Shown here one piece after another: positions 8,580-9,752 of a stretch of 36,712 nt of DNA (position 1 is its first letter; each line of letters opens with the position of its first letter). Source of the stretch: a virus; IMG/VR virus record IMGVR_UViG_3300002518_005145, positions 10,793 to 47,504 of that record; one strand, 5' to 3'. The translations under genes were made by a program, and so were the position numbers. The notes under the pieces were generated by a model. It saw only the letters and a list, made by a program, of their open reading frames with translations, was not told where the DNA came from and did not search any database.

Positions 8580-9752
8580 ATGAATAACGAAATTAAATAT
8601 CCGTTAGCAAAAGAAACTATTAACACTGAAGACGTAGATGCTCTTTGCGATTGGCTTAAAACATATCCTAGGCTGACAAAGGGAGAATTAACACCACAGT
8701 TTGAGCAGAAATGGGCTGATTTTATAGGAACCAAATACGCTGTTTTTTGTAATTCTGGATCTTCTGCTAACTTGCTAATGGTCTACGCGGCTATGATGCT
8801 GAATGGAATTAAAAAGATAGTAGTCCCTCCAGTGGGTTGGGTTACGACGATTTCTCCTGCGATTCAATTTGGATTACAAATACTACCGGGTAAAACAGAT
8901 CCAAAAACTTTTGGTATTGACCTGGATGATTTAGAGCGTTTGTGCGAAACAGAAGCACCCGACGCTGTCATCTTTGTGCAGGTTTTGGGAGTACCACATT
9001 ATAAAGAGCGTTTGCTAGAACTCAAAGAAAAATACGGTTTTGTTCTTTTGGAAGACTCTTGTGCAGCTCTAGGAGCTTCCTATCAAGATGGTACCATGGT
9101 AGGACAAGTTGGTGACATGTCGACTTTTTCTTTTTACTTTGGCCATCAGCTATCAACGATCGAAGGCGGCATGGTCAACACAGACGATTTTGAAACGTAT
9201 AAGATGCTTTTAATGCTAAGAAGCCATGGATGGGCAAAAGACTTAGACCAGAATAGTTATGACGACCTTATGGACTTACACGAAGTAGATAATTTTCATA
9301 CGCCTTTTACATTTTTTGTACCCGGGTTTAATTTGCGCTCAACAGACTTGCAAGCATTTATTGGCTTGAGGCAGATGGATAAGGCAGATTGGGTAGCTAG
9401 AAAAAGAAATGAAAACCACTTGGAGTATGCGCGCCAACTAGAAGGATATGTTGAGTTTCAAGACTGGGGAGATAATAAGCCAGTCTCAATTTCTTTCGGA
9501 GCGCTAGCTAAAAGCACCTCACACAGAACAGAAATTGTAAAAAGACTCGTTAAGCACGGAGTTGAAACTCGTATTTTTAGCGCGGGAAATCTAAGATTAC
9601 ATCCATTCTGGAGCCACGTACAAGAGGCGATTGATCCAGACGAGATGGGGACAAAAATTCATCAAACAGGTTTCTTTTTGCCAAATTATCCGGAGATGAC
9701 TCTTGAAGACATTACATTTATTTGCAGTGTTGTTAAAGGAGAAACCGAGTGA
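8580..9752 (+). CDS. ColD/RfbH-type PLP-dependent nucleotide-sugar 3-dehydratase (His in place of Lys)
   Basis: 390-residue member of the DegT/DnrJ/EryC1/StrS fold. The cofactor region NSGSSANLL (58-66), the LLEDSCAALGA segment with Asp159 near the PLP nitrogen, and RSHGWAKDL are all present. At the Schiff-base position the sequence is SFYFGHQLSTIEGG: His189 stands where aminotransferases have Lys. That change is the mark of the sugar 3-dehydratases ColD (His188 in E. coli, from memory) and RfbH/E1. These remove the C3 hydroxyl from a 4-keto-6-deoxy sugar to give a 3,6-dideoxy-4-keto sugar. Length and lack of an obvious iron-sulfur cysteine cluster fit the glutamate-dependent ColD more than E1. 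With the GMD-type enzyme upstream, GDP-4-keto-6-deoxymannose is the likely substrate. A GGAGA site precedes the ATG. Confidence 0.82.
   Translation: MNNEIKYPLAKETINTEDVDALCDWLKTYPRLTKGELTPQFEQKWADFIGTKYAVFCNSGSSANLLMVYAAMMLNGIKKIVVPPVGWVTTISPAIQFGLQILPGKTDPKTFGIDLDDLERLCETEAPDAVIFVQVLGVPHYKERLLELKEKYGFVLLEDSCAALGASYQDGTMVGQVGDMSTFSFYFGHQLSTIEGGMVNTDDFETYKMLLMLRSHGWAKDLDQNSYDDLMDLHEVDNFHTPFTFFVPGFNLRSTDLQAFIGLRQMDKADWVARKRNENHLEYARQLEGYVEFQDWGDNKPVSISFGALAKSTSHRTEIVKRLVKHGVETRIFSAGNLRLHPFWSHVQEAIDPDEMGTKIHQTGFFLPNYPEMTLEDITFICSVVKGETE

Follow-up and report, generated by a model that had tools for sequence, protein, structure and literature searches.

The gene at 8580-9752 of the phage DNA analysed here very probably encodes a ColD-type nucleotide-sugar 3-dehydratase that would act by the ColD-like PMP mechanism proposed below. 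We consider it likely that this enzyme feeds a phage pathway to a 3,6-dideoxy sugar, probably one with a carbon branch. The enzyme alone is of a known type. What is new is the phage gene set in which a ColD-type dehydratase is combined with a small pair of ThDP enzyme subunits.

The stretch analysed (the window, 36,712 nucleotides) covers positions 10793-47504 of a 49,895-base IMG/VR record from a T4-like marine phage. Its genes include those for a late sigma factor and a baseplate wedge protein; a PhoH-like open reading frame, named by eye, lies upstream. A cluster of sugar and glycosyltransferase-like genes, which also includes a methyltransferase, is located upstream of the structural genes. 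The following features are used below.

28-684, plus strand: C-terminal part of a radical-SAM protein, adjoining the E1-alpha gene (Pfam Radical_SAM)
689-1300, plus strand: PDH E1-alpha-like ThDP subunit, 203 aa, GDM...DNG kept (Pfam E1_dh, 45 bits; NCBIfam PDH E1 alpha, 1.7e-21)
1303-1842, plus strand: PDH E1-beta-like ThDP subunit, 179 aa, pyrimidine domain only (Pfam Transket_pyr; PDB 1ik6, PDH E1 beta)
3775-4731, plus strand: GDP-sugar 4,6-dehydratase-like SDR of the GMD family (Pfam GDP_Man_Dehyd, 228 bits; PDB 2pk3, 7us5, 1db3)
6082-7020, plus strand: GDP-fucose-synthase-like (GFS-like) SDR (NCBIfam GDPFucSynFcl, 207 bits; PDB 7ll6)
8580-9752, plus strand: predicted ColD-type PMP/PLP sugar 3-dehydratase, 390 aa (phmmer against PDB, fold, tree)
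9144-9146, plus strand: codon CAT of His189, at the position of ColD His188 and of the aminotransferase Lys (alignment)
9749-10483, plus strand: PfkB kinase, HldE N-domain-like, its start overlapping the end of the ColD gene (Pfam, NCBIfam)
11348-12175, plus strand: RmlD-like SDR, candidate ketoreductase (Pfam RmlD, 128 bits)
12282-12668, plus strand: HldE C-domain-like nucleotidyltransferase (NCBIfam rfaE_dom_II, 149 bits with a cut-off of 181.5; PHROG 7878)

The full radical-SAM reading frame begins upstream of the window (L006, 9965-11476). Its part within the window resembles HpnJ and, weakly, AprD4 diol-dehydratase, and radical-SAM-like genes are also found near ColD in loci L016, L018 and L024.

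The 8580-9752 protein has the DegT fold, and SFYFGHQLSTIEGG corresponds to its residues 184-197. An earlier note on this DNA had placed a histidine, His189, at the Schiff-base position, and translation and alignment bear out its frame, motif and coordinates. In phmmer alignments His189 matches the H of wild-type ColD (2gms), while the same column holds K or N in the ColD H188 mutants (2r0t/3gr9 and 3b8x, respectively). The comparison with ColD, E1-type proteins and aminotransferases that the note had proposed was made in an alignment of 61 proteins: His189 coincides with ColD His188, and the column contains H in all ColD-type and E1-type proteins and K in all aminotransferase-type ones. Thus the window protein does not have the Schiff-base lysine of aminotransferases. 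The note had also argued that His in place of Lys separates 3-dehydratases from aminotransferases, and the literature agrees in regarding this replacement as the main difference between them (PMC8987622). As the note recognized, a lysine elsewhere could form the Schiff base instead; in an alignment of 37 sequences of the phage family and its relatives, Lys is absent from all invariant and at least 90% conserved columns.

Scanning viral contigs with an alignment yielded 39 loci with relatives of the dehydratase. About 24 of them, at 65-75% identity, keep the motif SFYFGHQ, while about a dozen at approximately 40% have FGHH; in the latter group ColD often adjoins GMD and GFS-like genes, i.e., a colitose set. 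The histidine is kept in all the closest phage homologues (65-75% identity) and in the more distant phages of the ColD group. The gene is under purifying selection: dS is saturated for nearly all pairs, and the three that escape saturation give dN/dS of about 0.17-0.18. Therefore His189 is neither a chance replacement nor a sequencing error. When genome contigs were scanned with the window protein, the only hit was a weak Lys-type relative (L005); plasmid records were therefore used to look for relatives on the host side.

Several rankings place the protein closest to ColD. In a phmmer search against all PDB sequences the top match was ColD 2gms (174 bits), followed by E1 (121 bits), the putative 3-dehydratase 9wvy and then aminotransferases, at 106 bits and below. 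An AlphaFold2 model built with the 37 phage and related sequences has a pLDDT of 93.4, and the first nine chains found with it by Foldseek are all ColD. VIA-align gave Z of 48.0-48.7 at 2.0-2.2 A for ColD (48.7 for 3b8x), 45.8 for E1 and at most 45.7 for aminotransferases; since all three share one fold, this ranking supports the class and does not prove it. In the 61-protein alignment Trp87, Asp159, Ser184 and Asn251 are as in ColD, beside His189, whereas E1-type proteins have Phe in place of Trp87 and three to four cysteines. The cluster region of the window protein contains no cysteine, compared with four [2Fe-2S] cysteines in 3bcx. The Fe-S cluster is present in E1 and SpnQ and absent from ColD (PMC8987622). 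In a maximum-likelihood tree the protein falls within a ColD group of 47 rows that includes E. coli ColD (support 100/96), and both the E1 group (100/99) and the Lys-type proteins stand apart. The earlier note had left the choice between ColD and RfbH/E1 open; Trp87 instead of Phe, together with the missing Fe-S cysteines, settles the class as ColD. The enzyme is almost certainly a sugar 3-dehydratase, one that would remove oxygen rather than add nitrogen.

E. coli ColD/WbdK (2gms, 3b8x, 2r0t, 3gr9) shares with the window protein the His, the Trp, the cofactor-binding residues and the lack of Fe-S cysteines. The two are only about 29% identical, however, and the window protein has Gln instead of a second His after the active-site His. 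In addition, its gene belongs to a phage genome and has a ThDP pair among its partners.

Database names point elsewhere, as the earlier note had anticipated when it wrote that automatic annotation would call this gene an aminotransferase. Both Pfam (DegT_DnrJ_EryC1) and PHROG 3139 do so, as does RefSeq (with the names DegT-family or class I/II-fold aminotransferase) for the bacterial and archaeal relatives in Azospirillum, Sulfitobacter, Chelatococcus and Haladaptatus, all of which carry the His. Cyanophage copies are annotated as “hypothetical protein” or “aminotransferase”. The exception is the S-CAM7 copy, already named “putative CDP-4-keto-6-deoxy-D-glucose-3-dehydrase”; thus one phage 3-dehydratase was named before. 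The aminotransferase label misstates the product in both phages and bacteria, and a single alignment column picks out the His-type members.

The dehydratase gene is regularly accompanied by a gene of a ThDP enzyme. A clear one is present in 19 of the 21 close-clade records; L034 has weak partial matches only, and the remaining record, L017, starts 473 nt upstream of ColD. The enzyme is of two architectures. An E1-type gene is found in the window and in L002, L003, L004, L014, L019, L021, L023, L024, L027, L028, L029 and L032, and a full-length YerE-like gene in L016, L018, L020, L025, L026 and L033. The E1-beta genes of L003 and L004 and the ThDP genes of L002 were missed by Pfam and found by pairwise searches. 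Against JanthE (8rph) the YerE-like proteins of these close relatives reach 353 bits, and against AHAS-class acetolactate synthases no more than 244; their second match, 5ahk, is presumably PpYerE. JanthE is itself a YerE-like enzyme (PMC12188165).

The association was also seen from the ThDP side. A His-type DegT gene lies on the same strand at 70 of the 80 best viral E1-alpha loci, with a median gap of 1.5 kb and 64 cases within 3 kb, and all ten loci without one are on contigs that end 0.04-1.7 kb downstream. For YerE-like loci the proportion is 30 of 42. Among 110 DegT proteins read by alignment, the Lys column holds H in 108 and K in 2. In a control sample selected via the nucleotidyltransferase, a ThDP match was absent from all 64 loci that lack DegT. 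When 27 control records were searched as a whole, a ThDP gene was present in five of the seven with His-DegT (two of these weak), and the others yielded one borderline match of 14.5 bits. Many of the sequences are related, so these counts are not independent trials. Among 72,556 plasmids the three best E1-alpha matches were Azospirillum operons of the order E1a-E1b-ColD. These operons, SDR-E1a-E1b-DegT(His) in NC_016588, NZ_CP029835 and NZ_CP029359, have the same genes side by side, with a likewise putative function; they differ from the window in having full-length E1-alpha and E1-beta and no GMD nearby.

The ThDP family has other uses, since the cyanophages P-TIM68 (L012) and S-SM2 (L013) carry a related fused E1-alpha/beta protein, annotated “transketolase central region”, beside a zinc alcohol dehydrogenase, and a DegT gene is absent from their whole genomes.

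What the analysis establishes is the identity of the active-site residues, the predicted fold, the place in the tree, the conservation and the association of genes; the activity, the nucleotide, the position of the branch and the destination of the sugar in the following scheme are inferred. As inferred from ColD, the enzyme would hold PMP without an internal aldimine, and the C4 ketone of an NDP-4-keto-6-deoxy sugar, whose nucleotide is probably GDP, would condense with PMP to a Schiff base. His189 would then take a proton from the C4' carbon of PMP, and the C3 hydroxyl would leave. Hydrolysis would release the free 4-keto-3,6-dideoxy sugar, with L-glutamate regenerating PMP. This 4-keto product would serve as the acceptor of a ThDP carboligase, here the E1-alpha/E1-beta pair at 689-1842, assigned by homology, which would add a C2 unit derived from an alpha-keto acid to the ketone. 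Finally, an SDR would reduce the branch to give a yersiniose-like C-branched dideoxy sugar, and the glycosyltransferases of the cluster would transfer it. We find it reasonably likely that the cluster carries out these later steps, i.e., carboligation, reduction and transfer. The substrate GDP-4-keto-6-deoxymannose, named in the earlier note, is plausible. Four members of the close clade (L014, L021, L027 and L032) have GMD and an intact GFS-like gene immediately upstream of ColD; this arrangement speaks for a GDP-linked substrate in the clade.

The strongest argument for a branched sugar is that two ThDP architectures appear to occupy one slot beside the same dehydratase. The substrate of YerE is a 4-keto-3,6-dideoxy NDP-sugar, and 3-dehydratases make products of this class. 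By 2015 two mechanisms for two-carbon sugar branches had been described, the PDH-like AviB1/AviB2 and the ThDP flavoprotein YerE (PMC4425429); YerE-like, PDH-like (aKADH2) and transketolase-type branching enzymes have been reviewed (PMC12247030). The yersiniose A pathway (E1/E3 and YerE), ErwE and JanthE resemble our proposal in that 3-deoxygenation is followed by ThDP carboligation, and six close relatives of the window have a YerE-like enzyme as that pathway does. Yersinia, however, uses CDP sugars and an Fe-S E1 dehydratase, whereas the window has a ColD-type enzyme, probably GDP sugars and a PDH-like pair in place of YerE.

The aKADH2 enzymes (AviB1/AviB2, Pau11/Pau12, KbDH) are likewise alpha/beta E1-like ThDP pairs encoded beside deoxysugar genes. 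We liken the phage pair to them by type. At 203 and 179 aa it is small relative to the described full-length PDH-like branching enzymes, such as Pau11/12 with 325/345 aa (PMC4425429). In a Pfam search the phage pair gave no Transketolase_C match, its E1-beta being without the C-terminal domain; for this reason we say that the pair may work like aKADH2 and not that it is one. If the proposal is true, this is a smaller architecture than that of the known sugar-branching enzymes.

From the constant company of ThDP genes one may suspect that many viruses of this kind make their own rare sugars with carbon branches. We give slightly better than even chances to the broader view that a large group of T4-like and other phages makes its own C-branched 3,6-dideoxy sugars, with the minimal E1 pair and the YerE-like carboligase being interchangeable. 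In the literature searched, subscription papers being outside its scope, we found no pertinent report of a virus-made branched-chain sugar or of phage colitose. If the branch is real, phages would be a new source of ketone-accepting ThDP enzymes, which are wanted for making tertiary alcohols, and the sugars that viruses put on themselves or on their hosts would include unusual ones.

Two other readings of the pathway were weighed. The product could be an unbranched 3,6-dideoxy sugar, such as plain GDP-L-colitose, with the ThDP pair serving a different sugar of the cluster. The window has GMD-like and GFS-like genes, and compact GMD-GFS-ColD cassettes exist in sister phages and bacteria. In particular, the Synechococcus phages ACG-2014f and S-CAM7 (GMD-GFS-ColD-GT11 cassettes) and most of L035-L047 carry ColD, GMD and a GFS-like gene and no E1-alpha, and their product is probably plain colitose. 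The ColD-type proteins of these two phages have the His, as in the window, but are only 30% identical to the window protein and belong to a separate tree branch. Against colitose in the window itself stands the GFS-like protein at 6082-7020. In the window, L016 and L023 its catalytic Tyr is replaced by His and its first Ser by Ala, at positions that we take to be Tyr136 and Ser107 in E. coli numbering. Without the intact Ser/Tyr/Lys of a ColC-like epimerase/reductase, it is no ordinary ColC. As a separate observation, it may be an epimerase or other lyase rather than a reductase. The nearly constant presence in the close clade of a ThDP enzyme, of one architecture or the other, also speaks against an unbranched product, and we regard this reading as unlikely.

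The second reading, to which we give the same low weight, is compatible with ours save for the sugar: ColD-type chemistry would act on an NDP-6-deoxy-4-keto-heptose. A C3-dehydratase of C. jejuni, sharing 62-67% identity with ColD-type enzymes, has GDP-6-deoxy-4-keto-heptose as its substrate (PMC10440746). The GMD-family SDR at 3775-4731, which keeps TSE and YxxxK, is closer to 2pk3 (RMD) and to the GDP-heptose 4,6-dehydratase 7us5 than to E. coli GMD; 7us5 is its second PDB match, with 178 bits versus 124 for E. coli GMD. An HldE-like kinase and nucleotidyltransferase are encoded next door. HldE-type enzymes, however, give ADP-heptose and not GDP-heptose, and L014, L021, L027 and L032 carry another GMD-family gene, which in L014 is close to the GDP-mannose model (367 bits). 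The ColD-PfkB order is the same in most close relatives. We considered the ColD-PfkB-nucleotidyltransferase order as a functional link to heptose activation and rejected it: PfkB-nucleotidyltransferase loci are mostly without ColD, so the order may be mere phage backbone.

Returning to the ColD-type assignment, an aminotransferase that works without the internal lysine, or an enzyme turned into one, is very improbable. The protein does belong to the DegT family, and the His-type SpnQ transaminates in the absence of its reductase, but under the same reductase-free conditions ColD and E1 showed no transamination (PMC8987622); moreover, the His, Trp87 and the ColD phylogeny are kept throughout. 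It is less probable still that the gene is non-functional filler of host origin. Sullivan et al. (2010) left functional versus stuffer DNA undecided for the LPS clusters of T4-like cyanophages (PMC3037559). Here purifying selection, the invariant active site and the conserved gene pairing argue for a working pathway and name a product that can be looked for; the 2010 question is answered within the reach of selection and conserved pairing and no further. Finally, a CDP-sugar 3-dehydratase of the E1/RfbH type, which has a [2Fe-2S] cluster and works with a reductase, shares the His, and RfbH is the best NCBIfam model (175 against a cut-off of 423), but we rejected this chemistry on the missing cysteines, and Trp87, the position outside the E1 tree group and the lower E1 score agree, so that almost no weight is left to it.

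Several further His-type DegT proteins were seen in the viral loci. A ColD-type gene (7995-9155) and an E1/RfbH-type gene with four Cys (10279-11634) lie about 1.1 kb apart in one phage, L024. Two 509-aa DegT proteins (L048, 579-2108; L049, 7605-9134) have His at the Lys position and V where the EGG motif normally has E (STYMAHHIATGVGG), and they form a long, deep branch. Divergent His-DegT proteins in L066 (6508-7653), L233 and L260, with the motif SFYIAHLVCCGEGG (SYYVAHLICCGEGG in L233 and L260), are encoded close to a ThDP gene and are possibly a further type of 3-dehydratase. Elsewhere in the window, 15290-18991 encodes a phage protein of 1233 aa. It has no match among the PHROGs, and its C-terminal motifs SLHSYGLAVDID and DHMHFHYW look, by eye, like those of a VanY/M15-type peptidase.
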